Source: Novipirellula herctigrandis (GTDB lineage: Bacteria; Planctomycetota; Planctomycetia; Pirellulales; Pirellulaceae). From it: a stretch of 64,000 bases of DNA. The stretch's first letter is position 1. The number at the start of each line of letters is the position of its first letter. The position numbers and the translations under genes are program-made. The stretch is taken from positions 2,713,257 through 2,777,256 of the forward strand of contig SJPJ01000001.1 in assembly GCA_007859835.1 (NCBI GenBank), read 5' to 3'. Positions 38,836-60,548 of the stretch are shown here, piece by piece. The notes under the pieces were generated by a model. That model made no database searches, was not told the DNA's origin, and saw only the letters and a program-made list of their open reading frames with translations.

Positions 38836-40404
38836 CTAAAAACCAAGTTGTTTCTTATCGACCGTTGTCTCTCCGCTTGCTTTTTCAGGAGCAACACGAT
38901 GAATGATCGCTTGGAATTCAGCAACCTGCTGCGGATAATCTGCCGCAAGGTCTTTGGTTTCGCCTGGGTCTTCGGAAAGGTGGAAGAGCAGTCCAGGTTC
39001 ATCGACCGTCGTTCGGATCCACTCGCCAATACCTCCACGCTCGGTGATATTGCCCGGCGGAATGTATTTCCAGTTTCCTTTGCGCACCGCGATTTGAGTA
39101 AGCGCTTCTTGGATCACAAAGTCGCGTCCCTGTTGTGATTTGCCCAACAACGCGGGTAGAAGATTCTCGCCATCGGCACCCGCACCTTCCAGCATCGGTT
39201 GCCCAATCAACGCCGCGACCGACGCATAGATATCGACTTGACTAACAAGCGCATCTGAAATGCCGGGGGTAACATTGCCGGGCCACGACACGATCAACGG
39301 CATCCGCGTGCCTCCTTCCCAACGACTGTATTTCCCGCCTCGCCAAGGACCGGCCGCTTTGTGCTCGCCCTGGTTCTCAATCGCGCCTTCCCAATAGCCA
39401 TCGAATTGAACGGGGCCGTTATCAGATGAAATAATGATCAGCGTGTTATCGTATTGCCCGTTCGCTTTAAGCGACTCTACAAGGCGTCCAATACACCAAT
39501 CAAACAGCGCCAACGCATCACCGCGAGGACCAAGACTGGTTGAACCTTGAAACCGACGATGCACGACGCGAGGAACATGGTTCTCATTCGGTGCATAGTA
39601 GAGGAAGAACGGTTGTTCCCTTTTCTGGTCAACGAACTCGATGGCTTTGCCAAGATAGTCGTCAGCCATGTTCTCATCAGTAAAGCGAGCCTTCTTTCCA
39701 CCGGTCATGAATCCGATACGGCTAACACCGTTGACGATCGTCCCGGAGTGCTGCTCATCCGCTTGAACCTTTAAGAGTTCAGGATGGGATATACCCGTTG
39801 GTTCGTTACCGACCATTTCCTCATAGTTGACTTGCACTGGATCGTTCGGATCCAAGTTGACGATCCGTCCATTCTCGATATAGACCGAGGGAACACGGTC
39901 GGCAGTTGCAGCCATATTGAACGAATAATCGAAACCCACTTCTTTCGGACCAGGCTCAATTTGAGCGTTCCAATCAAGCGGTTCCTCAGCCGACCCAAGC
40001 CCTAAGTGCCATTTCCCAACGAGCGCAGTGGAGTAGCCGTTATCTCGAAGAAAAGTTGCGATAGTGGGGCGTGATGGATCAATAATCAATGGAGCGTTGC
40101 CCGGCAGGATCTGAGCGGATTGGTTGCGAAACGCATATTCGCCGGTCAGCAGCGAATAACGCGATGGCGTACATGTTGCGGCACTACAATACGCTGACAG
40201 AAAACGAACACCACTTTTGGCAAGCGAGTCAATATTTGCCGTGTCAACACCGACTCCGCCGTAGCAACTGAAATCGCCAAAGCCAATGTCATCGCCATAG
40301 ATGATGATAATGTTCGGTCGCTCCGCCGCTTCGCCCCCTTTCGCCAAAAGCAACGAAAGCAGAGTCACAGCGACAACAACAGTTAGCGAGGATGCTCTTC
40401 TCAT
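38836..40404 (-). CDS. S1 sulfatase
   Basis: Secreted sulfatase of 522 residues with the signal MRRASSLTVVVAVTLLSLLL ending near GGEA. Metal site IYGDDIGFGDFSCYGG; formylglycine site CTPSR at C78 (TCTPSRYSLLTGEYAFRNQ), GKWHLGLG, then SSDNGPVQFDGYW. All catalytic landmarks are normal. It is the last gene of the minus-strand carrageenan block and lies 112 bp downstream of a GH110 gene, suggesting that it acts on the same galactan fragments. Confidence 0.93.
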   Translation of the reverse strand: MRRASSLTVVVAVTLLSLLLAKGGEAAERPNIIIIYGDDIGFGDFSCYGGVGVDTANIDSLAKSGVRFLSAYCSAATCTPSRYSLLTGEYAFRNQSAQILPGNAPLIIDPSRPTIATFLRDNGYSTALVGKWHLGLGSAEEPLDWNAQIEPGPKEVGFDYSFNMAATADRVPSVYIENGRIVNLDPNDPVQVNYEEMVGNEPTGISHPELLKVQADEQHSGTIVNGVSRIGFMTGGKKARFTDENMADDYLGKAIEFVDQKREQPFFLYYAPNENHVPRVVHRRFQGSTSLGPRGDALALFDWCIGRLVESLKANGQYDNTLIIISSDNGPVQFDGYWEGAIENQGEHKAAGPWRGGKYSRWEGGTRMPLIVSWPGNVTPGISDALVSQVDIYASVAALIGQPMLEGAGADGENLLPALLGKSQQGRDFVIQEALTQIAVRKGNWKYIPPGNITERGGIGEWIRTTVDEPGLLFHLSEDPGETKDLAADYPQQVAEFQAIIHRVAPEKASGETTVDKKQLGF

Positions 40405-40516
40405 AGGAGTGCCTTATTTGTTTGGAATCGTTAAAAGGATGATCGTCGTCCTTCGCTTAGCGAAAAAACCAAGTCATTCAACTTCGCACAGCAAAAGGTA
40501 AAACTAAATTGAATGA

Positions 40517-42346
40517 TCAAAAGCCATGATTACCTTCGACTCGAAGGGTTCTGCGTGTCGCCTCATCCGCTTGGACCGACTTCGTGCTTGTGCCTTCGTA
40601 TTGGTTATTCGTGATCTCAACATTGCGGCAGTTTATCAAATCGAAGCGGTGCGCATCGGGGTGCAGTGGCTGGGCATCAGTGGTCTGTTTGATCGTGTTC
40701 CCCGCAATAACCAAACCATCTACTCGGTCCGCCCACACAATACGGTTGTCGAAGGTTTCAATGGCGTTGTTTTCGAACCGGATATTACGATCGTACAACT
40801 CGTCTTGATGGAATGCTTTCCCAAGCCTTGGAGTGATCCAGAGTATAGCATGCTCCATCCCGCTATAAGCACAATGCTTGAAGCGATTGTTTCGAATGAC
40901 AACGTCCTCAACAGAGCCAGATTCGAACCAGAAAAACGACTCGCCACGAAAGAAGATCGACGACATCATCGATGAGAAGTCGTTGTCCTCGATGACAATT
41001 TTTTGTGGCGTCTTTAGCACCACGTTGCGTGCACGATGATTTTGAATTGTACAACCGCGCATCGTAAACGAAGGGTTCCACGTCTTGTTTTCAAGTAGAT
41101 CGCCAACATCCAAATCAGCGGGCAACGGGCTCTTGAATTGCAATTGGACGAAACGCTCGTTAACCACCTCAACCGAGATGACTTCATTCGCCGCAGCTCG
41201 AGCAGGGCTTGGGCAGTGAATGAACCAAATCGCATCGCCTACCCCAGCAAACTCAAATCCCATCTGTTCAAAGTGCTTCAACTGCACGCGGACGGTGTGG
41301 GTATCGATCACCTCATCCACTTCGGCATAAGTTCCATGCACATTGGTGCCATCGTCAAGCATGTTCTCGAAACGACACTTTTCTATCAGCAAATCGCCTC
41401 GGCAATTGCAAAAGTGGGTGGCGTCGGCTGTTGTGGAGACAACTCGGTTGGTCCCCTCTCGCAAATAGATCCCACAATTTGCGAGCGTCGCATGCTCGGA
41501 CCTTTCGAACAAAAACCCCATCCCCAATGCGTGGTGAATCACCACCGATTCAAAGCGAATATTCTCACATAACTTGACTTGGAACGCCGGCGCGTAACGA
41601 TCATGCTCACGATCCCCTTTGGAACTGAGCAACGAACCAACCGGCGGGTATTGCCTAAGTGGTTCATGAAACCGCAGGATGCCATCGTCTCTTTGCTCGA
41701 CCCACCGAGGTTGACTATGCAAATCCCACGCACCATGAACCACTCGCTTGAGCACAGGTTCGAAGGCGAGGGTACTTCCTAGTTCGGAGTAATTAAACCC
41801 GTCCACGTTAGGGAATTCCAATCGATGCTGATGCAGACGCCATGAAAAACCGTCCGTAAACGGCTTAATGTCTCGCCACCCTTCATCAGAATTGCACTCC
41901 ACGACGGTCCCCAGAAAAGTGAAGGGGATGTCCCAATCCAATGTCAGGTTCTTCACCGTCACTTTGTCACAGTTTTCGAATTGGAACGGAGCCATTCGGC
42001 CATGAAAGATGAACTCCGCGCCATTCCCCTCGATTTCAACGGAGTCGAAGTCCTCAAAAAGGAACGCAATCTTCTTGAGACCATTTCCATGGTTGGTAAT
42101 CGTGCAGTACTTATCCGTGGCATAGTCTGGACGAAAACGATAGGTGCCTTTGGAAAAGACCAACTTGACATCACGGCCGGAAACACCGTCGATCGCCCCA
42201 CGCACGACCGGGGTCATGTCGTCGGCAACCGGTTTGATCTCAATCACTTGGCGAGCCTGGACCTCTGACACAAACGCTAGCAGCGAGGCAAAGACCATCG
42301 GAAGACAAAATGCAAACAGTCTTAGAAATTGATTTCGAAGTATCAT
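40517..42346 (-). CDS. GH110 alpha-1,3-galactosidase-like enzyme
   Basis: A 609-residue secreted right-handed beta-helix protein. GH110 enzymes cleave terminal alpha-1,3-linked galactose by inversion; marine members have been tied to carrageenan breakdown. Family landmarks: ITNHGNGLKKIAF, FIFHGRMAPF, GMGFLFERSEHATLANCGIY, STTADATHFCNCRGDLLIE and ENMLDDGTNVHGTYAEV. The adjacent D331-D332 pair is the conserved catalytic acid pair of the family. The signal ends near SEVQA. A paralogue lies at 51220-53034, with the two carrageenase candidates between them. Gaps to the neighbours are 112 and 245 bp. Confidence 0.87.
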   Translation of the reverse strand: MILRNQFLRLFAFCLPMVFASLLAFVSEVQARQVIEIKPVADDMTPVVRGAIDGVSGRDVKLVFSKGTYRFRPDYATDKYCTITNHGNGLKKIAFLFEDFDSVEIEGNGAEFIFHGRMAPFQFENCDKVTVKNLTLDWDIPFTFLGTVVECNSDEGWRDIKPFTDGFSWRLHQHRLEFPNVDGFNYSELGSTLAFEPVLKRVVHGAWDLHSQPRWVEQRDDGILRFHEPLRQYPPVGSLLSSKGDREHDRYAPAFQVKLCENIRFESVVIHHALGMGFLFERSEHATLANCGIYLREGTNRVVSTTADATHFCNCRGDLLIEKCRFENMLDDGTNVHGTYAEVDEVIDTHTVRVQLKHFEQMGFEFAGVGDAIWFIHCPSPARAAANEVISVEVVNERFVQLQFKSPLPADLDVGDLLENKTWNPSFTMRGCTIQNHRARNVVLKTPQKIVIEDNDFSSMMSSIFFRGESFFWFESGSVEDVVIRNNRFKHCAYSGMEHAILWITPRLGKAFHQDELYDRNIRFENNAIETFDNRIVWADRVDGLVIAGNTIKQTTDAQPLHPDAHRFDLINCRNVEITNNQYEGTSTKSVQADEATRRTLRVEGNHGF

Positions 42347-42591
42347 AAATAGTTTCCATTCAAAAAGTCCGCTCGGCGGAAGTCCTCAATTGGACCTCTT
42401 TCGTTCACTCGACGCTCTTACCGATCACATTCAAACTTTGGTTCATAACAACCTGATCGAGTGACCGGAAGGATAAAGGGCCGTCAATCATCGAACGATC
42501 ATTGTCTCAGAAAAACGGTTTTCGATGCTAAAAAGTGTATTGCCGTTTCGGTTGCATTGGCCAGCAAACCAGGTCGCAAGCAAATCCTTCG

Positions 42592-43524
42592 TTATTGGTC
42601 GCCATCTCCGTTGATCACGTTATCGATCCAATCCCTCGCTTGTTTGCGGTACTCACTTTCTTTGTGCATCCAAAGATCCGTGTGGGGATGCATAACCTTC
42701 CCCTCGGGAATGTCAAAGATACACGTTGTCGGCACATCGAGAAACGTAAACCGGGCTAACTCACTATGGTCGCCGAGGTACTGATCTCTCAACTGGGACG
42801 CGCGCGTGCTGCACACCAACACGGGTCTTCCCTCAAGTCGTGCCAGACGGATCAGAGCGGATTCGCGATCACAGTCTGGATAGTTCCATTCTCTTTCCCC
42901 GTCGAAATGATCATGGGTAAAAAAGCCTTTCCAAAGTGCGGCAATCTCGTTGTCAGCAAGTCCAATGTAGCTAATCGCGATAGAACCCCGTGAGAAACCG
43001 CAAACAAGGACATTGCCTGGGTCGCCCCCGAATTGTTCACAAATCCTTGGTACATTGATCTTGCAATAATCGATCGTTGCCTGGCGGTCACCCCATTTGG
43101 TAAGGGCATTCTCTGTCAGGTTCTTTTCGACACAGGGCATCGTTACCCAAATAAAACCACGACCTCCACTCATACCATATCCTAAATTGGCATCTTCCAC
43201 CTTTCCGGTCGAATGGCTAGGAGGCCAATAATTCCCCGTGTACTCAATGATGACCGGAAACTTACCGCCCGGTGTCCAGTCAACAGGCAGGTACAATGCA
43301 TGATGAACCTTGGTACCGACATACTCCGGGGCAACCTGGCGCACACGTTTTCCCGGTTTTGGATCGCCAGTGGTCATCACGGGGGTAACTAGGTCACACG
43401 GGGCACTCACGACATCTTGGGCCTGCCCCAAGCTCGCCACTACACAAAGCAAGATCGTCATCAATACGATTTTCGTTCGAATCGATCGATTGCGTTGGTA
43501 GGATCCACTGAAATTGCCAACCAT
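42592..43524 (-). CDS. Secreted alpha/beta hydrolase, possible esterase
   Basis: A 310-residue protein with an extended n-region and hydrophobic signal (RTKIVLMTILLCVVASLGQA). The alpha/beta-hydrolase nucleophile elbow is VLVCGFSRGSIAISYIG, Ser in G-x-S-x-G form. The strand before it, KFPVIIEYTGNYWPPSHSTG, would carry the oxyanion hole, and HPHTDLW late in the chain holds a candidate catalytic His. The ATG follows the stop of the sulfatase at 43525 with no gap (TAAATG), so translation is coupled. It may remove acyl or methyl groups from the algal polymer; no specific family is recognised. Confidence 0.75.
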   Translation of the reverse strand: MVGNFSGSYQRNRSIRTKIVLMTILLCVVASLGQAQDVVSAPCDLVTPVMTTGDPKPGKRVRQVAPEYVGTKVHHALYLPVDWTPGGKFPVIIEYTGNYWPPSHSTGKVEDANLGYGMSGGRGFIWVTMPCVEKNLTENALTKWGDRQATIDYCKINVPRICEQFGGDPGNVLVCGFSRGSIAISYIGLADNEIAALWKGFFTHDHFDGEREWNYPDCDRESALIRLARLEGRPVLVCSTRASQLRDQYLGDHSELARFTFLDVPTTCIFDIPEGKVMHPHTDLWMHKESEYRKQARDWIDNVINGDGDQ

Positions 43525-45078
43525 TTAGCGTTTCTTCTTTTTCTTATTCATTTTCAATTTGGCTGAGAGAGTCATCGCTGGGCGAGCAACGCTTTCACTT
43601 GGCCCTCGAAAAACATAGGGCTCCCAAAGAGCAACCGCTGCTTCCCATTCCTCTAAGGTTCGCGTCGGATACCATGCGGGCCAGCCATGAACGTTGTAGT
43701 CATAGTTGTCAGCGTTTTCATGCACCCATTGATCGACCGTCGACGTAGGACAAACGGCGGGGTAAGCATCGCTCGCACGAAATTCATCCGACACGCCTTG
43801 ATCATCAATCACACCTTTGCGCCAATGATCCAACTCCGCAAGCAACTCTGCTTTGACATCCGCATAGTTAGGATCGTCCGCAACGTTATTTACCTCGTGC
43901 GGATCATGACGCAAATCAAATAGCTCGACCTTTGGTTTAGACGGGGCAAAGAAACGAGCCTGCGTGGGCGTCAGTTCGCCTTTCATCTTCAGGACGTTCA
44001 TCTCTGCGAGCACCGGATACGCACCTTCCTTGTAATTATTGTATTGGCACCATGGACGCTCCGGCATCAAATTCAAGATCAACTTATAATTCTTCGAACG
44101 AATCGCTCGCATCGAATCGTGTGTTTCATCCATCTTATCGCGTGCTGCGAACACATACTGGCGGTCCTTCACATCGTCGCTGAACAAACTCTTTCCATGC
44201 AAAGGAACCGGAGGCGTGATCTCGGCAGCCTCGAGAACGGTCGCACAAATATCGATCGCCATTACCATGTCGCCATTGACTTGCCCTGGGGCAACTTGAC
44301 CTGGCCAACGCATGATCATTGGTATGTGTAGTCCGCCATCGTAGAGAAACTGTTTCCCTCGAATGTGACAACGCCCATGATCTCCAATAAAGAAGACAAT
44401 CGTGTTCTCAGCGAGCCCCTCGTCATCCAAACGCTTCAGCAACTGACCGACTTCGCGATCAACCAATTGCATTTGTTCGAGACCGTTTGCCCAATCGCGT
44501 CGACAAAACGGTGTATCCGGATAGTATGGCGGCAACTCTACATCCTTGGGATCAATGGGACGTAGCGGATCGCGATTCCACGAACGATGCGTACCGCCGA
44601 AGGTGATCCGAGCAAAGAAGGGTTGTCCCGGTTCTCGCCCGCTCCAATCTTCGCCCATAAACAAATCCGATTTCGAGTTAGGAGTGAAGTTACAATCGGT
44701 TTTCCAACTCATCAACGCGGTATAATACCCGGCCTCTTGAAAAAGATGCGGGATAGGTTTGATCCCGTGTGGCAACGGCTTCTTGTTGTATTCGCGATGC
44801 TGGTTTGCACCGATGTAGTTTTGGTGAAAACCGGTCATCATGGCGGAGCGTGAGGTCGAGCAAACGGGCGAAGTCGTGAACGCCGCAGTGTAGCGAATGC
44901 CCTCGGCTGCAAGCTTGTCCACATGAGGCGTATGAATCCCTTTGGTTCCGTAGCAAGAAAGATCGGGGGACCAATCTTCAATCGCAATCCAAAGGATATT
45001 CGGTCGTTCCGCAAAAACCTCCGCTGTAAACAACAGCACGAACGTCATCGTCAAAAACATTGCCAAGAATCGTTTCAT
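43525..45078 (-). CDS. S1 sulfatase with CSTSR active-site motif
   Basis: Secreted sulfatase of 517 residues, signal MKRFLAMFLTMTFVLLFTAE. The formylglycine site is CSTSR at C73 (PVCSTSRSAMMTG): the third position is Thr where maturation enzymes normally meet Pro or Ala. The metal site has Glu-Asp (WIAIEDWSPDLSCYG), a change also seen in N-sulfatase-like branches. The lysine segment reads SWKTDCNFTPN and the late pair is IGDHGRCHI. The C-terminus is a basic tail (KLKMNKKKKKR). It is coupled to the downstream hydrolase and lies 58 bp after another sulfatase. Confidence 0.9.
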   Translation of the reverse strand: MKRFLAMFLTMTFVLLFTAEVFAERPNILWIAIEDWSPDLSCYGTKGIHTPHVDKLAAEGIRYTAAFTTSPVCSTSRSAMMTGFHQNYIGANQHREYNKKPLPHGIKPIPHLFQEAGYYTALMSWKTDCNFTPNSKSDLFMGEDWSGREPGQPFFARITFGGTHRSWNRDPLRPIDPKDVELPPYYPDTPFCRRDWANGLEQMQLVDREVGQLLKRLDDEGLAENTIVFFIGDHGRCHIRGKQFLYDGGLHIPMIMRWPGQVAPGQVNGDMVMAIDICATVLEAAEITPPVPLHGKSLFSDDVKDRQYVFAARDKMDETHDSMRAIRSKNYKLILNLMPERPWCQYNNYKEGAYPVLAEMNVLKMKGELTPTQARFFAPSKPKVELFDLRHDPHEVNNVADDPNYADVKAELLAELDHWRKGVIDDQGVSDEFRASDAYPAVCPTSTVDQWVHENADNYDYNVHGWPAWYPTRTLEEWEAAVALWEPYVFRGPSESVARPAMTLSAKLKMNKKKKKR

Positions 45079-45136
45079 ATTTGCTTCTCTTATGAGTCTC
45101 TCTTAGGGACGGGGGTGCAACGCGATGAACACGCAA

Positions 45137-46516
45137 TCAAGGAGCATGTTGCAGTTGGATCAGGGCTTCGATTTCGGTTTGCAACTCAGGATGCTTGTCA
45201 GCAACATTGTGTTCTTCGCCCGGATCCGTAGACAAATCGTACAATTCCAGCAGCGACCGTGATGAGGAGGTATTGTAACGGACTGCTTTCCAATTGCCCT
45301 TCCGAACCGCAACACGGCCTTTCTTTGCGGGGAATTCCCAATAGAGAAAGTCATGCTTTTGTTGATTGTCACTTCCCAACAACGTTGGCAACATCGAGAC
45401 ACCGTCTCCTTCGCTAGGCAACGGTTTACCCACCAAATCAGCGAACGTCGGCATGATATCCCAGAACGCCGAAATGTGATCGGAAACGGATCCTGCTTGG
45501 ATCCGATGCGGCCATGCGGCGATCATCGGAACGCGAACGCCACCTTCGTAAAGGTCACGCTTGTAGCCGCGACATTGACCGTTCGAATTAAAATACTCCG
45601 GGTCGTGACCACCTTCGAGATGGGGGCCATTGTCAGAAGAAAAGATCACCAATGTTTTGTCGGCGATGCCTAGCGACTCCAATTCCGCCACCACTTCCCC
45701 AACATAATCATCCAACACATTGACCATCGCCGCGAAAGCCGCATGCCCTTCGGGCTGCCCGATGTAGTAGTCCTCGGGATAGTTCAACTCAGGCAAAAAC
45801 TTGCCTCGAAACTTGTTCATGTACTCTTCCGGTGCGATCATATCAGCATGAGGCTGCACGGCCGCGTAGTAGCAGAAGAATGGCTGGTCTTTGTTGCTTC
45901 GGATAAAATCCAATGCTTGAGCGTGAATAAAATCGGGAGCGTAATCCTTTGAGAACGAAGAAACATTGCCCCACAAAAACTCTCGCTGGTCATCACTCCA
46001 AAGCCACGCCGGATAGTAACAATGTGCAAGTCGTTGGCAGTTGTACCCATAGAAGCGATCAAAACCCATTTTCAAAGGATCGCTATCGCTGCCGGGATAC
46101 CCTAAACCCCATTTGCCGAAGACACCCGTTTGGTATCCTGCGGTTTGCAAATGCTTGGCGATGGTGTAAGTATCCGCCGGCATCGGCATTTGACCCTCGG
46201 GTGCATATTCTGCGTTGCCTCGAACTGCGGTATGCCCAGTGTGCAAACCGGTCATCAACGAACACCGCGACGGTGCGCAAACGGTGCTTCCCGAATAGTG
46301 CTGCGTAAACCGCATGCCTCGTTCAGCCAATTTGTCGATATTGGGAGTTTCATACTTTGTTTGCCCATAGCAACTCAAATCTCCATACCCCAAGTCGTCC
46401 GCCAAAATATAGACGATATTGGGTGTTTCTGCGGATGCAAAAGAGACCAATGTGAGACATGTAAAGATAAAGGAAACGCATCGCGAATGAAGCGAAAAGG
46501 GAACCGTTGATTTCAT
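45137..46516 (-). CDS. S1 sulfatase
   Basis: Secreted sulfatase of 459 residues. The start at 46516 is chosen for its signal (SLHSRCVSFIFTCLTLVSFA); the open frame upstream runs into the GH82 gene. Metal site LADDLGYGDLSCYG; formylglycine site CAPSR at C80 (VCAPSRCSLMTGLHTGHT). The GKWH segment is FGKWGLGYPG, with Gly for His, a pattern shared with the sulfatase at 4937-6310. Then SSDNGPHLEGGHDPEY. It follows the GH82-like gene by 70 bp in the same direction, so it is a good candidate for desulfating iota-type oligosaccharides. Confidence 0.92.
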   Translation of the reverse strand: MKSTVPFSLHSRCVSFIFTCLTLVSFASAETPNIVYILADDLGYGDLSCYGQTKYETPNIDKLAERGMRFTQHYSGSTVCAPSRCSLMTGLHTGHTAVRGNAEYAPEGQMPMPADTYTIAKHLQTAGYQTGVFGKWGLGYPGSDSDPLKMGFDRFYGYNCQRLAHCYYPAWLWSDDQREFLWGNVSSFSKDYAPDFIHAQALDFIRSNKDQPFFCYYAAVQPHADMIAPEEYMNKFRGKFLPELNYPEDYYIGQPEGHAAFAAMVNVLDDYVGEVVAELESLGIADKTLVIFSSDNGPHLEGGHDPEYFNSNGQCRGYKRDLYEGGVRVPMIAAWPHRIQAGSVSDHISAFWDIMPTFADLVGKPLPSEGDGVSMLPTLLGSDNQQKHDFLYWEFPAKKGRVAVRKGNWKAVRYNTSSSRSLLELYDLSTDPGEEHNVADKHPELQTEIEALIQLQHAP

Positions 46517-46586
46517 TGAAACTAATCCTGAGTTTTCTAAGTGCTTTGATGCTGACATGGATCGCCTAATTCGCTGCAGCCTTGCG

Positions 46587-47843
46587 TTAGTTCGCATTAC
46601 CCCTATTCGCAGCACCTTTCTTTGGCTTCTTGGAAGCACTGACTTCCCGAGCGTCCTTTTCAGTCATAACCGATGGCACATGTTGAAACCCTTTCGCTGT
46701 GACGTTTTCGATGTGCACTTCATAATTGGCAGCATACACAACCGCGGCGATCGATGGGCCTCGGACACTTTCGCCATCCTCGGATTGTTCCCGTGGCTGG
46801 ACTTGACCTAGCAACTCAACAGGCATGTACTTGAAGTGCTTCGATTTCAATTGTCCATTGGTTCCAAAGGTTGCGAATACATTCTTTACCGACGAGCCCT
46901 TCGCAAATGTCCCAATTGGCAAACCATCCACTTTTTGCTTTTTCGAGATAAAACCACCTTCGATGCGGACCCCGATGCCGCACCCCTTCGATGTGATCCC
47001 ATCCATGTGAAAAACACCGTTTTCCATGGAGTGTGGTGAAATCATCACCGCAGCGTTTCCATCGGTGCATTGAATGTTTCGGCCGACGATGTTGTCGATA
47101 CCACCGTATTGAACATCGTTCATTAAGCTGTATCCGCTTTCGAGACGCAACGACACACCGCCTACGCCGGACAGGTTTTCAAACAAAACTGACTTGGCAG
47201 CCTGAACCTGAACAACACCGTACCCATAGTGGGCGCCCGCGACGCTGACATTTTGAACGGTACCCGATGTCGGAACGGCTCTTTGGCCACGCTTTAAACC
47301 GCTCGGCCCGAATTGCAATGAAGCAAACTTTGTCAATTGATCGTTGACGTGACAATTGGAAACCATGAAGTTGCGAACGTTAGAAAAACTAACAAGCATT
47401 ACCCCCGGTTCGTGTTTTGGCATATTGACCGTGTACTTTCCGCCGACGCCTTTGACGCTCACATTCCTGACCGCTTCGTCCTCGGATCCTAGCTTAAAGA
47501 TCGCCACGCTCTTATTCAGGCGAACGATCATCGGAGTGATAACCACGTCTTTGTCGATCTCAACATGCACATTCGATTTCACATGAACATCGGCAAGGAG
47601 GTATCTTCCCTTGGGAATGGTCACCACGCCGCCACCGTGCGACGATACGAAGTCAATGGCTTGTTGTAGCTTGGCGCTATCGTCCTGTTTCCCTAGCCCA
47701 CTAGCTCCGTAATCCGATTCCAGGTCCTTGACAACCGCTCTCGTCTCCACGGACGCATCGTAGAATTCGGCTGCCGAACCGGCGCGTGAAGAAAAATGCA
47801 GGACGAAGGCCGTTGCGACGATTACCCATATGGTTCTATGCAC
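46587..47843 (-). CDS. GH82 iota-carrageenase-like beta-helix enzyme
   Basis: A 418-residue protein read from a GTG at 47843, with TTTGGAG upstream and a proper signal (HRTIWVIVATAFVLHFSSRA). Iota-carrageenases are right-handed beta-helix endo-hydrolases. Comparison by memory with the Alteromonas fortis enzyme gives strong local agreement: GYGVVQVQAAKSVLFENL, GGVSLRLES, YGGIDNIVGRNIQC, AAVMISPHSMENG, GPSIAAVV. Q212, E235 and H271 match the family's Gln222, Glu245 acid and His281. The Asp247 base position, two residues after the Glu, is Gly237 here. The protein may be an iota-carrageenase using another base, a relative with new specificity, or a non-catalytic binder. It follows the 940-residue gene by 100 bp. 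Confidence 0.8.
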   Translation of the reverse strand: MHRTIWVIVATAFVLHFSSRAGSAAEFYDASVETRAVVKDLESDYGASGLGKQDDSAKLQQAIDFVSSHGGGVVTIPKGRYLLADVHVKSNVHVEIDKDVVITPMIVRLNKSVAIFKLGSEDEAVRNVSVKGVGGKYTVNMPKHEPGVMLVSFSNVRNFMVSNCHVNDQLTKFASLQFGPSGLKRGQRAVPTSGTVQNVSVAGAHYGYGVVQVQAAKSVLFENLSGVGGVSLRLESGYSLMNDVQYGGIDNIVGRNIQCTDGNAAVMISPHSMENGVFHMDGITSKGCGIGVRIEGGFISKKQKVDGLPIGTFAKGSSVKNVFATFGTNGQLKSKHFKYMPVELLGQVQPREQSEDGESVRGPSIAAVVYAANYEVHIENVTAKGFQHVPSVMTEKDAREVSASKKPKKGAANRGNAN

Positions 47844-47943
47844 TATCCATTTACTCCAAACGAAAAACGGGGATTCATAACCCAAGCCGGTTTTCAACCG
47901 AATACGGTTGCCCGCAAAAGACCAAAAACAACCAACACTTGCA

Positions 47944-50766
47944 TCAGAGCGACTCGACCAACTCGACATCAACGAACCGAAACAACCCACAAGGAACATC
48001 TACATTCACCGATGAAGGGTCGGAAATATCAATCGAAGCTCCTGAAACCACGTCCGTCATTTTCATCGGTTTGACGCTGTGAAAACTCACGGAAGCGGTC
48101 TTCCCACTGGGATTAATGTATCCGCTATCAACGAGCGTCAAACGCAAATGAGTCGGCGAGGACTGCGCCACGACCCAAGCGACGTCACCCGTGACCGTCA
48201 GCGGAAGCAGTTTCGATCGATTGCGAATTTCGCTTTCCACCGTTTGATAGACAGCGTTTGCCGCATAATGTTTCTTTCCGTTCGGTGAAAAGTATTGCCG
48301 TCCATCGGTGATGAACTCTTTCAAAATGTTTTTGTAGAGCGGGTGAAGATGGTCCTTCAACTGTCCCCGCGGAGCATCGGAATCGGCAAACACACCTTGT
48401 TGCGGAGGCGTGATCAGAACCAACCCTCGATCGTACGGTGGCAAAAAATTCAGACGACGGTCTTTGACACCTGCTGCATAGCGAGAAAAATCCCAGGGAG
48501 TGTTTGGTGCACCGGGCCATGATCCGTTAAGTCGCCCGAACACCATCGGGTTTTTGTCCTCAAAATCTTGATCAAAGAACGTACACCATTTGGTGTTACT
48601 ACCTCGTTCGATGTAGGTCTCGTCAGGCTTTTTCATGCTGATATGAACTGGTGAAAAGCTAACGATTTCTTCTCGCTTTGGCACGTACAACGCGCCTTTT
48701 GCAATCAGTTCCCACAGTAGGCTCATGTATTGCTGATCGACGGAAAAATTGTCGAGGTACTGCGTCCCATGCGATATATCGTAAACCATCATACGAAGAA
48801 AATGATTGGGCAACATTTGGTGCGAGTGCTGCCGTGCACGATCATAGCTGGCATTGTCTCTTGCGCAACGACCTCCCCAACTGTTTACCGCACCACTGGT
48901 CCAAATCCCCAATCTCGCAGCGAGACTCAACTCCATGGACTTGTCAGTCGTCTCTTCCATCGATGGTACAAATACGTCTGCATATTCACCTGACAGCAAA
49001 TGTTTCCAGGCAGGCAAGTAGACATTCCCTTGCCAAAACACGTGTTTGGTTCGCACAAAAATGTTGGCGTTCTTTCCTTTTGCGGCGTCCGCTAGCGGGT
49101 AAATCAAATCATCCATGACATACTCAAACTCGGGACTGTGATCTTCCAACTCGGGATAGATCAGAACCGTCTTTTTTCCATTCGCAGCCGCGATCACTTT
49201 TTTGGTTGTATCGAGACTAAACATATAGGGATCGTTGCCGTGCCCAGCCCAATAGGCGATCCCCGGTCCATCATCCCCCGGTCCATCATCCCCCGGTCCA
49301 TCATCGTAGTGCGATACGATTTGCTCTAACGCTTGGTCCTGAGTCAAACTGTACTTTCGTCGTCGATCGCGGCGGTCACGGTATTTCTCACTTTCAATGG
49401 CGGATCGATCCCAATCCTCTGCTGTCCCCATGTGGAACCCATTCAAAAAAACCGGGCTTCCATAGCTGGAACGAAGTTCTTCCACCAGGGCTTCCACCGT
49501 TTTCCTGTTTTCGCTCATCAAATAAACGGGAAGTGGATCCCGTTCCCAAGCAGGTCGTTTGAATGTTTTCAGTTGCTCACGAACCATCGCTGTGTTCTCT
49601 AAGATGGTCGCAATTTTTCCGGGCGGCGACAGGTTTTCGTACTCCGTTTTCCAGTCCGGATGGTTTGGGTCCAGAATATGGATGCAACTTCCACCGCTCT
49701 GTGCACTCGCAAAAACAATTCGATGGGTAAGCGGATCTTTCCACATGTCATTGAAGGAATATCTACAAACGAGAACTTCTGTTTTCCCTTTATCGAGATC
49801 AGTGGGGAGCAGCAAAATACGGGAACCAAACAGGACAAAATACTGGGTCTGTTGAGCTGATGAAATCACTTCTGGCTGGGCGACTCGGTAGCCAAAACTA
49901 TCAAGCTTCCTACCAAGGCTTGAAATTCCGAAGATCCGTTGGTCACCGGCCTTCGCGTCAATGACCGCAACAGAAGCATCGTGAATCATGGAGCTTGCCC
50001 CCATCAGAATTTCACTTTTGCCTTCGACTTCACACACCCGAAGTTCACCCATTGGAGACTTGGACTCTAGCGGAATCGTGCTCCATGGCTTGTCAGCGAG
50101 AGGCTCGAACAGATAAAGCACTCCCTTGTCCTGCATGCCATTCATCATGCCATGCACGACGAGGCTTTCGGTTCCATCCGCATTTTTAATTTTGCGAAGA
50201 AAATTGGCGACATGCAGCTTTTTAGGTGGGCTTGGCTTGTGCGGGTCATTCCCCCAAGGCTTGGAGACGGAGTACCCCAACGAAGGCAGGTCTTTTACCA
50301 AATCCCCGACCGGTGACAGGTAGTAAATATGGTTGTCATAGCCACCACATACAACGTAGGTCTTGGCCTGGTGATGCAGTACGCAAACGGCATACATCGG
50401 GGCGTCATTCTTTTTGAATGTCCACTGCAATTCGCCCCTGCTATTGAGGCAGTAGAGGTGACCGTCCGCATTGGCGACCAGGATTTCATCCGTCCCATCG
50501 CCGGTGATATCCTCGCACCAGAGGTCATGATTCATGTAGCCGGAAAGCTTATTTTCCCAGCCGACCCTGCCACTATATGCAATGCCAAACACGGTGCCTT
50601 CGTAGCTACTGGCGACGACGTACGAGTTCCCTTTGATTAGAGCCGTACGAACTTTGGAGACCGTGTACCCTGTTTCGATGCTAGTAACGCCATCCGCCCC
50701 AAAACTGCTTCGAGTCAGCCCTACCAGAATGAACACGATGACGATTACAACTAGTTTGCTTTTCAA
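47944..50766 (-). CDS. Putative GH150 lambda-carrageenase, propeller plus catalytic domain
   Basis: A 940-residue secreted protein, signal MKSKLVVIVIVFILVGLTRS. Residues about 30-370 form a PQQ/WD-like beta-propeller (EDITGDGTDEILVANADGHL, HVANFLRKIKNADGTESLVV). A low-complexity linker with three Asp-Asp-Gly-Pro-Gly blocks sits at 488-502. The rest is a large domain (GIAYWAGHGNDPYMF, IFVRTKHVFWQGNVYLP, WTSGAVNSWGGRCARDNASY) and a final beta module. Lambda-carrageenase CglA of Pseudoalteromonas, founder of GH150, is 942 residues with an N-terminal propeller, low-complexity linker and C-terminal domain. The same length, build and genomic setting make GH150 the best guess, but I could not align them. 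Otherwise it is an unknown large galactanase. Confidence 0.6.
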   Translation of the reverse strand: MKSKLVVIVIVFILVGLTRSSFGADGVTSIETGYTVSKVRTALIKGNSYVVASSYEGTVFGIAYSGRVGWENKLSGYMNHDLWCEDITGDGTDEILVANADGHLYCLNSRGELQWTFKKNDAPMYAVCVLHHQAKTYVVCGGYDNHIYYLSPVGDLVKDLPSLGYSVSKPWGNDPHKPSPPKKLHVANFLRKIKNADGTESLVVHGMMNGMQDKGVLYLFEPLADKPWSTIPLESKSPMGELRVCEVEGKSEILMGASSMIHDASVAVIDAKAGDQRIFGISSLGRKLDSFGYRVAQPEVISSAQQTQYFVLFGSRILLLPTDLDKGKTEVLVCRYSFNDMWKDPLTHRIVFASAQSGGSCIHILDPNHPDWKTEYENLSPPGKIATILENTAMVREQLKTFKRPAWERDPLPVYLMSENRKTVEALVEELRSSYGSPVFLNGFHMGTAEDWDRSAIESEKYRDRRDRRRKYSLTQDQALEQIVSHYDDGPGDDGPGDDGPGIAYWAGHGNDPYMFSLDTTKKVIAAANGKKTVLIYPELEDHSPEFEYVMDDLIYPLADAAKGKNANIFVRTKHVFWQGNVYLPAWKHLLSGEYADVFVPSMEETTDKSMELSLAARLGIWTSGAVNSWGGRCARDNASYDRARQHSHQMLPNHFLRMMVYDISHGTQYLDNFSVDQQYMSLLWELIAKGALYVPKREEIVSFSPVHISMKKPDETYIERGSNTKWCTFFDQDFEDKNPMVFGRLNGSWPGAPNTPWDFSRYAAGVKDRRLNFLPPYDRGLVLITPPQQGVFADSDAPRGQLKDHLHPLYKNILKEFITDGRQYFSPNGKKHYAANAVYQTVESEIRNRSKLLPLTVTGDVAWVVAQSSPTHLRLTLVDSGYINPSGKTASVSFHSVKPMKMTDVVSGASIDISDPSSVNVDVPCGLFRFVDVELVESL
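49261..49305. repeat. 15-bp tandem array in a linker, three units
   Basis: Three perfect copies of ccccggtccatcatc inside the 940-residue protein gene. On the coding strand they add Asp-Asp-Gly-Pro-Gly three times (residues 488-502) between the propeller-containing half and the C-terminal domain. The frame is preserved. Confidence 0.95.
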
Positions 50767-51219
50767 CTTTTCAAATCCGCAATTTGATATTTATGCATTG
50801 ACACCCGACGAAGCGGAGGGAAGTGAACAGGAAAAATTCATCCAACTCCGACTAGCTGTATATTCCCGGCGCTGGCCGATTTACCGGACAAAGTCTTTGT
50901 TTTTTCCTAAAATTCTTCCTAGGCTTAGGTTCCGGATGCAAAAGTTCAAGGAGCGCCCGCCGTCGGGTTGGACCGACCGCCGTTGCACTCCAAATGCTTC
51001 GATGCATTTGTTTTATATGATAATCGTGATACAGCAACCGAGCCCGAGAAGCCAGCCAAACGCTTTGGCAAGACGTACCAGCGATGGCAACTCCATCGCC
51101 GCCACCGTTATTCCGAAGCGTCGTTCCGCGTCATCTTTCCGCGCCGTCATGCCGGACTGTGGATCGCCCTCAACACCGACAACCCCACAACCATCCGTGT
51201 GGCCGATCGCTGGCAGCGA
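50767..51219. other. 453-bp spacer upstream of the GH150 candidate
   Basis: Lies between the GH110 stop (51220) and the start of the 940-residue gene (50766), both on the minus strand, so it probably contains that gene's own promoter. A long plus-strand open frame crosses it into GH110, but its translation is arginine-rich and resembles no family, so I treat it as a shadow. Nothing else is seen. Confidence 0.5.
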
Positions 51220-53034
51220 TTACTCGGACTCGAACCCACCATTGGCGTCCATAACGGGGTCCGTCGTATCCGTCGCTTTGACCGTCAATGGCTTAGCGAA
51301 TCCGCTGGCCTTGTTGCCTTGGATCGTTACATCGTCACAGTACTCCAGCACGATCGATGGCCCCTCATCCACCACCGGATAGTCGGTACTGAACTGCATC
51401 TTGTTTCCGGAAATGTCCAACCCCTTCACCGAGCGAGCGTTCACCAACAAGCCGTTGAAGCTATTGATCGTATTGCCGGTGAAGTGGATGTTACGATGAT
51501 ATTGCCCCTCACCCATATGCTGCTCGGCAGTTAGCAACGGAGAGGCAAGTAACGGATAGCGTTCAGTGACAGCAAAGCCGATGTTGTCGAACACGTTGTT
51601 GCGGATCGTCACGTCCTGGACCGCGCCCGATTCATACCACTTGTTGTTATCCCCCTCAATCAGAATGCCGTGCATCTGAGAGGAAAAATAGTTATTCTCG
51701 ATCATCACTTTGCCCTTGGTTGTGACCAAAACACTACGGGCACGGTTTTCGCGGATCGTATTATTCTTCATCACGAGGTCCGGGTACCAAGTCAGGTTTT
51801 CAACGGACAGGGGACCTTCGGGGAGCGACTCGGGGAGGTCCGAGACAGACATGACAAAACGGTGTTCGTTGAGCGTCTTGATGGCTTTGATCGTCGTTTC
51901 ATAAAACGGCAACACTGTCGTTCGTGACATCAGGGCAATCTTGTCGCCCGGTTGCCCGAAGATTAGCCCCCACTGCTGGAAATGACTGATTTCACAAACG
52001 AATTCATTGTTGCCGAGATATTCCGCAACTTTCACGTAAGCTCCATGGACATTAATCCCGTCGTCAAGCATATGCTCGAAACGGCAATTTTCGAGCCGGA
52101 TCGTGCCTTTGCATCCGATGAAGTGCGTTGCATCGGCGCGGGTCGAAACAATGCGATCTTCGGTCGAGGTCACCACCATGCCATCTAGCGAAATATTGTC
52201 AGTACGTTCGACGATTAACCCCATTCCCCCCGCGTCATAGACCGTCACGTTTTCAATCTTGACGTCGCTTGAGTTTGTAATGTGAATCGCTGGACAAAGC
52301 CGACTTGTTGGATGCACGCCGTACGTAACCAATACACTGCCGACCGGCGGAGCGTTCTTCACTGCATTCTCGATCCTAAAACGGTTCTTTCCCAACGCAG
52401 TCACCTTCGCTCGATTGCTATTCACAGCGTAGTCCTTGGTGCGATAAATCGGAGACCTCGTTTTTGGATCAAAAACCATGTTGGAGCCGATGGGGTCTTG
52501 TTGACCATAGCGGTCGAACAGGACCTTTCCATCGTTGATCGAGAACGGGTAAAGCTTTGGATCGGTTTCAACCACGAAGCTCTTGTCGGCCTCATTGCTT
52601 TCGACAATCGTCAGCTCTGCATGGAACGATCGAATCCAATCGATCGAAAAGTTTTTCAGGGTCGCTCCCCGCGTCCCTTCGATCGTTACTGGGACCATAC
52701 GTCCATGAAACATGAAGACGCTGTCGCCACCATCGATCGTGATGTTTTTGCAGTCAAACAGTGGGAACCCCATTCTCTTTAAACCGTTGTCATGGTTCGC
52801 AACGGCACGATACATCTCCAAGGCATTCTCGGGATAAAAATCGTATTGCCCCTTGGGAAAGACAAGCGTGACATCGCTCTGGTCTTTCAGCGATTCGATC
52901 AACCGATTCAGTGAATAGGTCGCATCGATTCCTGGAACGACACCGTGGTCGGCAACGTTAATCTCAGCCGCACGAGCAATTGGAAAAGAAAGAACAAACA
53001 CGCATAGAAGCGTTTTCAATTGCAACATTGTCAT
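51220..53034 (-). CDS. GH110 alpha-1,3-galactosidase-like enzyme
   Basis: A 604-residue secreted beta-helix protein, signal LKTLLCVFVLSFPIARA. Two ATGs, at 53034 and 53028, both fit; neither has a strong ribosome site. Family landmarks: VANHDNGLKRMGFPLF, FMFHGRMVPV, GGMGLIVERTDNISLDGM, STRADATHFIGCKGTIRLE and EHMLDDGINVHGAYVKV, with D324-D325 as the conserved acid pair. Its N-terminal half is closer to typical GH110 than that of the paralogue at 40517-42346; the two differ most in the 150-250 region that shapes the substrate cleft. It heads the minus-strand carrageenan block. Confidence 0.87.
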   Translation of the reverse strand: MTMLQLKTLLCVFVLSFPIARAAEINVADHGVVPGIDATYSLNRLIESLKDQSDVTLVFPKGQYDFYPENALEMYRAVANHDNGLKRMGFPLFDCKNITIDGGDSVFMFHGRMVPVTIEGTRGATLKNFSIDWIRSFHAELTIVESNEADKSFVVETDPKLYPFSINDGKVLFDRYGQQDPIGSNMVFDPKTRSPIYRTKDYAVNSNRAKVTALGKNRFRIENAVKNAPPVGSVLVTYGVHPTSRLCPAIHITNSSDVKIENVTVYDAGGMGLIVERTDNISLDGMVVTSTEDRIVSTRADATHFIGCKGTIRLENCRFEHMLDDGINVHGAYVKVAEYLGNNEFVCEISHFQQWGLIFGQPGDKIALMSRTTVLPFYETTIKAIKTLNEHRFVMSVSDLPESLPEGPLSVENLTWYPDLVMKNNTIRENRARSVLVTTKGKVMIENNYFSSQMHGILIEGDNNKWYESGAVQDVTIRNNVFDNIGFAVTERYPLLASPLLTAEQHMGEGQYHRNIHFTGNTINSFNGLLVNARSVKGLDISGNKMQFSTDYPVVDEGPSIVLEYCDDVTIQGNKASGFAKPLTVKATDTTDPVMDANGGFESE

Positions 53035-53162: not shown

Positions 53163-53190
53163 CAATTCGAGTGGCCGGCCACTCGAATTG
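53163..53190. promoter_or_regulatory. 28-bp perfect palindrome
   Basis: Each half is 14 bp: caattcgagtggcc and its exact reverse complement, with no loop between them. It lies 53 bp after the stop of the enolase-superfamily gene and 129 bp before the GH110 start, both on the minus strand. It could be an operator for the GH110 operon or a terminator stem for the catabolic genes; there is no T-run, so an operator seems as likely. Confidence 0.6.
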
Positions 53191-53242: not shown

Positions 53243-54340
53243 CTAACCCACACTTACGCGATGCTTGGCGATTTTTTCCCAATCAATCTCGACACCGTGT
53301 CCGGGCCGATCCGATGCATAGGCGTAACCGTCTTTGATTTCAAGCTGGTGTAACAAGAAATCATCCACTCGGAATGCATGGATTTCAAGCAGTGATGCGT
53401 TGGGAATCGCAGCCAAACAACTGACGTGCATCTCTTGAATACCGTGCGTCGTTAAGTTTCGGTTGTAGGCTTCGGCAATATGGGCCACTTTCATCAACGC
53501 CGTGATACCGCCGAGGTTCGAAATATCGGCATCCGGAAATGACACGCCTCCCTGGGCAATCATTTGTTTGAATTCGTAGATCGAATGTAAATTTTCACCG
53601 GTAGCAACCGGAATCGGTCCTTCCATTTCGATCCGTCGGTTACCTTCGATATCGTCAGGGATCGTCGGCTCTTCGATCCAGTAGATATCATATTTTTCAA
53701 ATGCGCGCACCGCTCGAAGGGCCTGCTCGACGGACCATTTCATGTTGACATCGACCATCAACTTCTTCTCGGGACCAAGCAACTGCCGCACGGCTGCGAT
53801 ACGTTCACATTCTTGGGCGATTGAGTCACGCCCGATCTTGATCTTGATCGCTTGAATTCCAGCATCCAGGAATCCTTGGGTCTGTTCGAGCAACTGGGGG
53901 ATCGTCATGTCAAAGTCGATGCCGCCCCCGTAGGCTTCTACTTTATTGTCATGGCCCCCGAGGAATCGCCATAGAGGCTCACCGGCGAGTCGTGCCTTCA
54001 AATCCCAGAGGGCCGTATCCACAGCCGAAAGTCCAAAAACGGCGATTCCGCTGCGACCAACGTAGTGAAGTGCCCACCACATTTTGTCCCACAGATATTC
54101 AATTCGACGAGGATCCTCGCCAATCAAGATCGGCGCCAAATTGTCTTTGATCAATGTAGCAATCGAAGACCCACCCACTTGGCCCACACTGTAGGTATAC
54201 CCCATACCAGACGCACCATCGTCGGTCGTGATTTTGACGACGATCAACGAAAAGTCTTTCTGTACCCCGTGAATGGCATCTACCACCGGCCTTGCCAACG
54301 GAACGTGGTACAGTTCGGTTTCTACGCTTTCGATTTTCAT
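53243..54340 (-). CDS. Enolase-superfamily enzyme, likely anhydrogalactonate cycloisomerase
   Basis: A 365-residue cytosolic member of the mandelate racemase/muconate lactonising group. The start at 54340 (MKIESVETELYHVPLAR) removes a long implausible extension. Catalytic landmarks: KxK at K166-K168 (IKIKIGRD), metal ligands D197 (VDVNMKW), E223 (YWIEEPTIPDD) and E249 (ATGENLHS), and H299 in THGIQEMHVS. The N-terminal pattern HVPLAR..DAIHG..F and GMGYTYSVGQVGG resembles 3,6-anhydro-L-galactonate cycloisomerases as I remember them, which open the anhydro ring to a 2-keto-3-deoxy acid. An aldonate dehydratase is the alternative. The aldehyde dehydrogenase that would supply its substrate is the next gene upstream. 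Confidence 0.75.
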   Translation of the reverse strand: MKIESVETELYHVPLARPVVDAIHGVQKDFSLIVVKITTDDGASGMGYTYSVGQVGGSSIATLIKDNLAPILIGEDPRRIEYLWDKMWWALHYVGRSGIAVFGLSAVDTALWDLKARLAGEPLWRFLGGHDNKVEAYGGGIDFDMTIPQLLEQTQGFLDAGIQAIKIKIGRDSIAQECERIAAVRQLLGPEKKLMVDVNMKWSVEQALRAVRAFEKYDIYWIEEPTIPDDIEGNRRIEMEGPIPVATGENLHSIYEFKQMIAQGGVSFPDADISNLGGITALMKVAHIAEAYNRNLTTHGIQEMHVSCLAAIPNASLLEIHAFRVDDFLLHQLEIKDGYAYASDRPGHGVEIDWEKIAKHRVSVG

Positions 54341-54514
54341 GTTGGTTAAATACTTAGACTTGGCGTGAGAATAAGGGCCCAGACTTTGGCCGGTCGAAAT
54401 ATCGTAGTGCCGGTTCCGAGCGGCCGATAGCCTGCTTGAAAAGTTGCCTGTTCCCAGGAACATGGCCGGTCAAAACCAGCCCTACATGAACATGAGCTAT
54501 TGGCGTGTTGGATT

Positions 54515-55990: not shown

Positions 55991-56150
55991 GACATGAACC
56001 GTTTGAATAATCGAAAGCAAGTTGTTGGATGCGTAATGCGGTGCGACCGCAAACGAAGCGAGCTACCGCTCGAATTGCGTTCGCCCGCTCCCGTTGATCG
56101 CTAGAATCGTGTCACGATGACATCAATTTCAGCAATCACTGTAGAGAAGC

Positions 56151-56948: not shown

Positions 56949-57062
56949 GAGGTGTCTCTGATTGTAAAAGTTAAAATGGGGAGGGAGTTAGGAGAAAACG
57001 GGTGCCGTGCCGACACTCGACCTGGCATTCGGCCACGACTCATCCTGACCGCAGATTGCCAA

Positions 57063-57129: not shown

Positions 57130-57174
57130 GCGTTGCAATTGAAATCAAGCTCCGTTCCAAGACGGGCCGACACA

Positions 57175-59392: not shown

Positions 59393-59393
59393 A

Positions 59394-60509: not shown

Positions 60510-60548
60510 TTTCGAGAATCCTAAAGGGAGAAACGTAGCCTGACAAAT

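Follow-up and report, generated by a model that had tools for sequence, protein, structure and literature searches.

Candidate lambda-carrageenan degradation genes beside a predicted agar-sugar operon in the planctomycete Novipirellula herctigrandis

We analysed a 64,000-nucleotide stretch of the Novipirellula herctigrandis genome (SJPJ01000001.1, positions 2,713,257 to 2,777,256; hereafter the window, whose own positions are used below), which lies on an 8.58-Mb contig of a 9.5-Mb genome. A sequence-only reading of this DNA had placed on one strand, at 38836-53034, two GH110-type galactosidases, a GH82-like protein, a 940-residue protein built like lambda-carrageenase, three sulfatases and an alpha/beta hydrolase, and had called them a carrageenan-type degradation block in a planctomycete. 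Each of the eight genes is an open frame at the place given, on the minus strand. A Pfam scan of 40 window proteins (smaller frames were outside it), combined with sequence and fold comparison, recovered the GH110, GH82-like, lambda-carrageenase and sulfatase genes as described, and all matches but that of the alpha/beta hydrolase scored far beyond chance. The planctomycete host was likewise supported; the nearest named relatives of the locus genes include Rhodopirellula-type planctomycetes. Among the 40 proteins no Pfam match to TonB, SusC or SusD was obtained, in agreement with the remark that the block lacks SusC/D, and the SusC/SusD pair of a Bacteroidota-type polysaccharide utilisation locus (PUL) is thus missing from this set.

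Enzymes of the block and their neighbourhoods elsewhere

The 940-residue protein (47944-50766) matched three CGLA Pfam domains over its full length (CGLA_M, E 4.3e-203; Beta-prop_CGLA, 6e-140; CGLA_C, 4e-36). It is 49-50% identical to CglA of Pseudoalteromonas carrageenovora and has orthologs at 59-61% in three Rhodopirellula-type genomes, those of R. rubra, Aporhodopirellula aestuarii and R. sallentina (hereafter the three relatives). By its domain build it is a predicted GH150 lambda-carrageenase of the GH150A/CglA type, expected to be an endo-enzyme for beta-1,4 bonds; GH150 is described as active on lambda-carrageenan only (PMC12549532). Both GH150 subtypes, A and B, are encoded in this genome: a second carrageenan-type locus at ~2.04 Mb (L017, G000:C1:2035000-2054999) strings together, behind a FecR-like gene, a GH150B-type enzyme (51-52% identical to that of P. 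carrageenovora), three GH82-like genes and four sulfatases.

Both GH110 proteins carry the two GLAA-B barrels. GH110a (40517-42346; barrel I, E 5e-23; barrel II, 1.4e-25) scored 805 bits to 9beh GH110A and is 58% identical to P. carrageenovora GH110A. GH110b (51220-53034; barrel I, E 2.7e-24; barrel II, 1.5e-8) reached 323 bits to 9beh and 303 to 7jw4, is 33-34% identical to both P. carrageenovora GH110s and recurs at 71-75% in the three relatives. In the lambda-carrageenan cascade of Pseudoalteromonas distincta U2A, solved in 2025, GH110A is reported to admit the 6-sulfate via R460/T498 and GH110B to block it with E480 held by D518 (PMC12549532). The P. carrageenovora numbering in our GH110 alignment matches that paper exactly; among its 64 rows some genes appear with more than one start, and no counts were drawn from them. 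In this alignment GH110a keeps R460, T498 and the DD324/325 pair, as expected of GH110A, and GH110b has Glu at the E480 place and Ser at the D518 place; the latter is filed here as a putative B-like GH110 rather than as GH110B. Based on these pocket residues, Arg plus Thr against Glu plus Ser, GH110a is predicted to be an exo-alpha-1,3-galactosidase that accepts terminal galactose-6-sulfate and releases it. GH110b may be an alpha-galactosidase releasing desulfated terminal galactose, a less certain prediction than that for GH110a.

All three sulfatases of the block were recognised by Pfam (E 2e-52, 1e-39 and 1.6e-61 for those starting at 38836, 43525 and 45137, respectively). The first (38836-40404) is by sequence of S1_15 type, with 525 bits to 9bas S1_15A, 494 to 9bau S1_15B, 47-49% identity to two P. 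carrageenovora arylsulfatases and a CTPSR motif, and is predicted to act on galactose-6-sulfate. The second (43525-45078), predicted for galactose-2-sulfate, is of S1_8 type and nearest to S1_8A (356 bits to 9bb9 S1_8A, 276 to S1_8B; 42% to P. carrageenovora S1_8A); its motif is CSTSR, as against CSTAR in P. carrageenovora S1_8A and S1_8C. The third (45137-46639, with an uncertain start among candidates from 46639 to 46450) has as its nearest solved relatives 7ana (416 bits) and 7an1 (388), which we take to be S1_20 gut mucin sulfatases for 3-O-sulfogalactose; this S1_20-type sulfatase adjoins GH150 in the three relatives at 65-74% identity. Lastly, the alpha/beta hydrolase was confirmed as an open frame (42592-43524) and stays putative in identity, its Pfam Esterase match (E 0.067) lying below the cut-off.

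GH110a, GH110b and the S1_15- and S1_8-type sulfatases match structures deposited with the U2A cascade paper, and apart from the atypical GH82-fold protein no block gene is nearest to a kappa or iota enzyme. GH150, GH110a and these two sulfatases each have their best solved or characterised relative among the enzymes of the lambda-carrageenan cascade, and we read the locus as lambda-type rather than as general carrageenan. The earlier assignment to carrageenan degradation is thereby kept and narrowed. Taking the families, the catalytic and pocket residues and the conserved neighbourhoods together, we consider the block very likely to be a planctomycete lambda-carrageenan degradation locus. It would carry many, not all, of the enzymes for breakdown of this polymer, directly behind an agar-sugar operon.

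Within the phylum, CGLA_M matches were found in 4 of 392 sampled genomes, strong ones in the window's own genome only; the other three gave single stretches of at most 47 bits (up to 64 with in-frame neighbours). A scan of GTDB species genomes with two peptide patterns yielded 85 confirmed GH150 candidates, of which the best 80 were kept and 73 loci used; several come from one genome, two overlap (L067 and L088), and ten are shorter than 20 kb, so that absences are lower bounds. By title these are mainly Bacteroidota, alongside three planctomycete loci and several of Verrucomicrobiota type or from proteobacteria. Within 10 kb of GH150, a GH110A-type protein was found in 28 of the 73 (200 bits, 50%), any GH110 in 35 (150 bits), a GH82-like protein in 17 (100 bits), an S1_8-type sulfatase in 14 (200 bits, 35%), an S1_20-type sulfatase in 7 (200 bits, 37%), a GH110b-type protein in 5 (200 bits, 50%) and an S1_15-type sulfatase in 3 (200 bits, 40%). 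In parallel, 19 of 299 Flavobacteriaceae genomes gave GH110 matches, and 18 GH110A-type loci (57-69%; among the regions L246-L280) from 17 genomes were used; weaker GH110 matches (34-38%) were left out and two regions are short (G458, 7 kb; G587, 30 kb). Six of these 18 loci have GH150 within the fetched stretch.

Further sulfatases of the window, all on the minus strand, recur in these loci. The one at 12356-13987 is commonest near GH150, reaching at least 300 bits in 29 of the 73 loci, followed by those at 31247-32755 (19; 39-48% among the 14 matches listed), 32860-34239 (10) and 29633-31231 (3). In the GH110A loci, 12356-type sulfatases (62-71%) occur in 14 of 18, directly adjoining GH110A in 13 and 3.4 kb away in one; the 300-bit counts for the others are 11/18 (32860), 4/18 (31247) and 4/18 (29633). 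The 32860 sulfatase adjoins GH110b in the three relatives (66-67%) and belongs to the GH110 module described below; that at 29633 is an occasional member, sporadic near GH150 or GH110A. A sulfatase of the Flammeovirga lambda-locus is 63% identical to the 12356 protein, which is a candidate for the 2-O-desulfation that would unlock GH110A. Because the 12356, 31247 and 32860 sulfatases recur near GH150 or GH110A, the gene set reaches beyond 38836-53034, limits that had been drawn too narrowly. Sulfatases starting at 17971 and 21423 reach 300 bits in two and one of the 73 GH150 loci, respectively, and seven serving as controls (2, 1655, 3435, 4937, 8199, 19752 and 25984) in none; among the 18 GH110A loci only one of these controls, that at 8199, does so, once. 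Thirteen sulfatases lie at 2-34239, accompanied by two sigma factors and a FecR-like gene; given these seven, that part probably serves other sulfated glycans too. Within it, 24419-26095 joins a 3-keto-disaccharide hydrolase domain to a GH43/GH117-like portion in one protein and is followed by the 650-residue sulfatase 25984-27936, one of the seven unlinked to GH150.

In the three relatives the genes form separate modules. One comprises a DUF1559 pilin-like protein (35147-36454, minus strand, in the window; 77-81%) adjoining the S1_20-type/GH150 pair and a GH82-like gene, with S1_8-type sulfatases within the stretch; the other comprises the 32860-type sulfatase, GH110b and S1_15, joined by GH110a in two of the three. 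The 12356-type sulfatase (69-70%) sits apart from both. The agar-sugar genes, from GntR and RhaT through alcohol dehydrogenase (ADH), short-chain dehydrogenase/reductase (SDR), aldehyde dehydrogenase (ALDH) and MR/MLE to a GH117-like gene, stand elsewhere again (MR/MLE 82-90%, ALDH 88-90%, SDR only 39-41%). These modules sit at a distance from each other or on separate contigs; the contigs concerned are long in R. rubra and A. aestuarii and measure 21, 32 and 46 kb in R. sallentina. In the window all of them fall within 12-61 kb, the lambda block lying between the MR/MLE gene and a displaced GH117-like gene. The locus is thus an assembly in which GH110-S1_15, S1_20-GH150-GH82 with S1_8, and the 12356 sulfatase stand together behind the anhydro-L-galactose operon. 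Horizontal import was considered on composition and dropped, GC being 0.49-0.54 for the genes measured, with no contrast.

The GH82-fold protein

The gene at 46587-47843 (minus strand, GTG start at 47843) encodes a beta-helix protein that matches iota-carrageenase 1h80/3lmw by sequence (E 3.9e-51) and, as an AlphaFold2 model (pLDDT 90.9), matches the iota-carrageenase fold in Foldseek (E 6.4e-28, TM 0.82). It is thus of GH82 kind by both fold and sequence. We take the GH82 catalytic acid to be E245 and the base D247, together with Q222 and H281; the window protein keeps the Glu, Gln and His and has Gly at the base position. We file it as a GH82-fold relative rather than as an iota-carrageenase; it falls outside the known iota-carrageenase clade and does not have this Asp.

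An alignment of 55 GH82 rows, one a duplicate of the window protein that was dropped for the tree (54 rows), has the acid Glu in all 55, Gly at the base position in 42 and Asp in five (A. fortis CgiA, L173, L176, L168 and L182). L160, with a stop in the aligned stretch, and the much longer L165 and L079 were kept out of alignment A3. In the tree, CgiA, L173 and L176 grouped with full support, the window protein fell in a separate supported set of 17 rows, and L168 and L182 formed a third group; branches are long and the letter make-up of the window row is odd. The closest GH82-like relatives, one match per genome, adjoin GH150 in A. aestuarii, R. rubra and R. sallentina, where the aligned stretch begins 40, 107 and 149 bases behind GH150, respectively. 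Each of the four planctomycete loci seen shows this pairing, which is not general, as the 17 of 73 loci given above attest.

An active iota-carrageenase at this place would make the block a general iota plus lambda carrageenan locus, and GH82 is called exclusively iota-active (PMC12549532). The Gly at the base place need not mean inactivity: a P. carrageenovora GH82 has it too, and this protein, identified by its place beside GH16, is reported as 95% identical to an iota-carrageenase of strain An33 (PMC6262041). A DauB-like gene (38%) occurs elsewhere in this genome, and a published carrageenan locus of Bacteroides combines GH82 with GH150 (PMC13168452). Relatives of DauA (49%) and DauB (38%) also occur close to GH150 in a locus of another phylum (L071, Bacteroidetes bacterium SZUA-561), whose neighbourhood further includes an aldose epimerase and a weak relative of RhaT. 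Against a general block stand the place of the window protein outside the clade of CgiA and its two kin, the planctomycete orthologs that sit with GH150, one match per genome, and the block itself, in which a D-anhydrogalactose gene was not identified. We therefore regard an iota plus lambda block as possible but doubtful, and retain the lambda-type reading.

Two ideas about the GH82-fold protein were tried and rejected. A replacement acid for the missing base was sought among five positions that are acidic in at least 85% of 15 near relatives; none stands out, since the three canonical rows are all acidic at four of them and two of these rows at the fifth. The other idea, a role in place of GH150 as lambda-carrageenase, drew on the reported growth of Zobellia galactanivorans on lambda-carrageenan in the absence of GH150 (PMC6262041). 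It was not supported: among the twelve GH110A loci without GH150 in the stretch, a GH82-like protein (at least 150 bits) occurs only in G443, which has GH150 elsewhere in its genome. Large GH82-like families (E 1e-8 or better), some members of which were aligned, were seen in Pontiella sulfatireligans (L079; 22), Lutibacter citreus (L026; 12) and Wenyingzhuangia aestuarii (L054; 11).

The agar-sugar operon

The minus-strand genes at 53243-61229 were compared with the agar plasmids Microscilla PRE1 pSD15, Bacteroides uniformis pBUN1 and Catenovulum adriaticum pCadTS8_2. They are headed by a GntR-FCD regulator (60549-61229; Pfam GntR and FCD; 60-65% in the three relatives), followed by a RhaT-type sugar permease (59394-60509; 46-48% to two agar-plasmid homologs) and an aldose 1-epimerase (58337-59392; Pfam E 3.8e-79; 42-47% to two agar-plasmid homologs), which had no match in the operon stretches of the three relatives. 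Next come a zinc ADH, the candidate 2-keto-3-deoxy-L-galactonate dehydrogenase (57175-58203; identity 63% with the Microscilla pSD15 homolog and 47-48% with those of the remaining two plasmids), and an SDR, the candidate 2,5-didehydro-3-deoxy-L-galactonate 5-reductase (56151-56948). The SDR matches PRK07097, gluconate 5-dehydrogenase, with 409.8 bits over a cut-off of 369, and its Catenovulum homolog (40%) carries the reductase name. The last two are an aldA-like candidate 3,6-anhydro-L-galactose dehydrogenase (54515-56020; 52-53% identical to its counterparts on the three agar plasmids, as against 33% for DauA) and an MR/MLE protein, the candidate 3,6-anhydro-L-galactonate cycloisomerase (53243-54463; 347 bits to 5xd7; 43-45% to agar-plasmid homologs versus 28% to the D-type DauB). 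The GH117-like protein, neoagarobiose hydrolase-like by a family name that we infer, is encoded on the plus strand (27981-29417) and matches a B. uniformis agar-plasmid protein annotated as family 43 (39%, 218 bits); in the three relatives its counterpart (55-59%) stands directly behind the cycloisomerase gene.

Dehydrogenase, cycloisomerase, SDR and zinc ADH thus occur together as in the agar plasmids, and 53243-61229 is a predicted operon for the 3,6-anhydro-L-galactose (agar) pathway, whose first two steps are given in PMC9706016. A galactose (De Ley-Doudoroff) or fucose reading was dropped, since the cycloisomerase matches 5xd7 and the gene set that of the agar plasmids, and identities of only 28% and 33% likewise disposed of MR/MLE and ALDH as carrageenan-type DauB and DauA. 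As lambda-carrageenan is described as free of anhydrogalactose (PMC12549532), the operon is best read as a neighbouring agar pathway. The sequence-only reading had also spoken of planctomycete regulators; the nearest on the same strand is the GntR-FCD protein, which heads this operon, and a FecR-like gene at 36988 is on the opposite strand. FadR/GntR regulators are also present in the Pseudoalteromonas carrageenan plasmid.

Only 208 bases separate the MR/MLE gene from GH110b on the same strand, with no T-tailed terminator-like site on the coding strand of the gap, and the gene that follows the cycloisomerase in the relatives is displaced here, with the lambda block in between. These features would fit one co-regulated locus, from the GntR operon through GH150 and GH110, for a hybrid galactan with L- and D-units. 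The gap, however, contains a perfect 28-base palindrome (53163-53190), a terminator stem or operator that could stop transcription or act as a control site of its own. The 24-base core of this palindrome is present a single time in the window and absent from shuffles; among other fetched loci it was found only in L108 and L199, which cover the same place. Just before it lies a minus-strand promoter-like match (53388-53360), of a kind no commoner than in shuffles. Palindrome and promoter-like match speak weakly for separate control of the lambda block. Moreover, the cycloisomerase (200 bits) was found within 10 kb in none of the 73 other GH150 loci and nearby in none of the 18 GH110A loci, weak MR/MLE matches (122-134 bits) occurring in two GH150 loci (L071 and L096), and the three relatives keep the loci in different places. 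A fused lambda and agar-sugar locus inherited from elsewhere was rejected on the same GH150 count. We consider a single hybrid-galactan locus unlikely, the palindrome lowering its odds. The palindrome likewise lowers those of a joint proposal, which we hold to be rather improbable: that the Gly-type GH82 branch is a carrageenan hydrolase of new specificity, using another base on lambda or hybrid regions, and that the composite locus couples lambda depolymerisation to anhydro-L-galactose catabolism on DL-hybrids. The simplest reading is that of two adjacent red-algal galactan pathways, rather than one.

Proposed cascade and known systems

For the lambda block we infer a substrate, an order of steps and a localisation, as we would any co-regulation, from the enzymes described above. 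GH150 would cut the beta-1,4 bonds of lambda-carrageenan to give neo-oligosaccharides, whose non-reducing end the sulfatases would strip. The 2-sulfate could be removed by the S1_8-type enzyme at 43525, by an S1_8B relative elsewhere in the genome (C1:4837362; 41-43%) and possibly by the 12356 sulfatase, and the 6-sulfate by the S1_15-type enzyme at 38836. GH110a would then remove galactose-6-sulfate and GH110b desulfated galactose, and a distant GH2 (C1:6483318, 3.7 Mb away; 60% to the GH2 of the P. carrageenovora lambda-locus) would take the beta-linked galactose.

Several observations weigh against this reading as a lambda-carrageenan locus. The U2A cascade offers no step for the GH82-fold protein or the S1_20-type sulfatase, GH110b does not have the Asp that braces the B-type pocket, and no alpha/beta hydrolase homolog (40 bits) was found within the 73 other GH150 loci. 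The block contains no GH2 and no clear S1_8B or S1_8C sulfatase (genome-wide searches did not extend to S1_8C). The separation of the modules is not firm in R. sallentina, whose short contigs could lie closer together. Twelve of the 18 Flavobacteriaceae GH110A loci are without GH150 in the stretch, so that GH110A by itself is no proof of a lambda-carrageenan target; in two of these genomes (G397 and G443) GH150 lies elsewhere, and such loci may use a different endo-enzyme or a GH150 not linked to them, or may serve a different substrate. The commonness of such loci, and the gut mucin sulfatases that we presume 7ana and 7an1 to be, would suit a block aimed at some other sulfated alpha-1,3-galactan, animal or algal. 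GH110 does include blood-group B-cleaving gut enzymes (PMC7939477, PMC6262041), but with GH150 described as lambda-carrageenan-only (PMC12549532) and the GH110A 6-sulfate pocket kept in GH110a we consider such a target very unlikely.

Few known polymers are as heavily sulfated as lambda-carrageenan, and cases in which growth on it has been tied to a genetic locus are described as quite rare (PMC12549532); the planctomycete genes, with no SusC/D among the proteins scanned, make a differently organised test case for its use. They also offer two leads without an explanation in the solved cascade: the Gly-type GH82 branch beside GH150 and the 12356-type sulfatase beside GH110A. Titles and opening lines of abstracts gave no description of the composite locus or of the Gly-type GH82 branch, in a search whose coverage took in few subscription papers, and the main text of a comparative Planctomycetota study (PMC11131199) is without mention of GH150, GH82 or GH110. 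The earlier view of a differently organised version of a known task holds as to the missing SusC/D; the idea as such is older, as carrageenan loci without SusC/D outside Bacteroidetes, with Planctomycetes among the phyla, have been reported (PMC5698469), and GH150 with GH110 was reported in Rhodopirellula sp. SWK7 in 2018 (PMC6262041), a likeness taken from that text rather than from a gene list.

Compared with the agar plasmids, the operon shares the zinc ADH, SDR, aldA and MR/MLE genes and, in two of three, the aldose epimerase and RhaT; in contrast, the pSD15 and pBUN1 stretches gave no GH150 or GH110 match and the Catenovulum stretch has none annotated. The cattle Bacteroides xylanisolvens carrageenan locus, likened by description, also unites GH82 with GH150, but belongs to the Bacteroidota and has GH16_17 and GH167 as well (PMC13168452). 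Plasmid p1 of Flammeovirga kamogawensis (NZ_CP076130) shares GH150 (51%), GH110A (57%), S1_15 (48%), S1_8 (39%), the S1_20-type sulfatase (37%) and the 12356 relative (63%); it differs in having GH2 and a hybrid sensor inside its locus and its GH82-fold match elsewhere on the plasmid, none being found within the stretch. The lambda-carrageenan PUL of P. distincta U2A and PUL 8-9 of P. carrageenovora 9T (PMC12549532, PMC6262041) share GH150, a GH110A-type enzyme, a second GH110 and S1_8- and S1_15-type sulfatases with the window, and both GH150 subtypes and the 60% GH2 with its genome. Here, in contrast, no TonB-dependent receptor was found in the block, GH2 and the S1_8B relative are unlinked, and a GH82-fold protein, an S1_20-type sulfatase and an agar-sugar operon in front are added. 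R. rubra, A. aestuarii and R. sallentina have the orthologous S1_20-GH150-GH82 triad and the GH110b-S1_15 module (with GH110a in two), but keep these separate from each other and from the anhydro-L-galactose operon; beside them, the N. herctigrandis locus is a rearranged and enlarged planctomycete version of an already known kind of GH150 plus GH110 locus.

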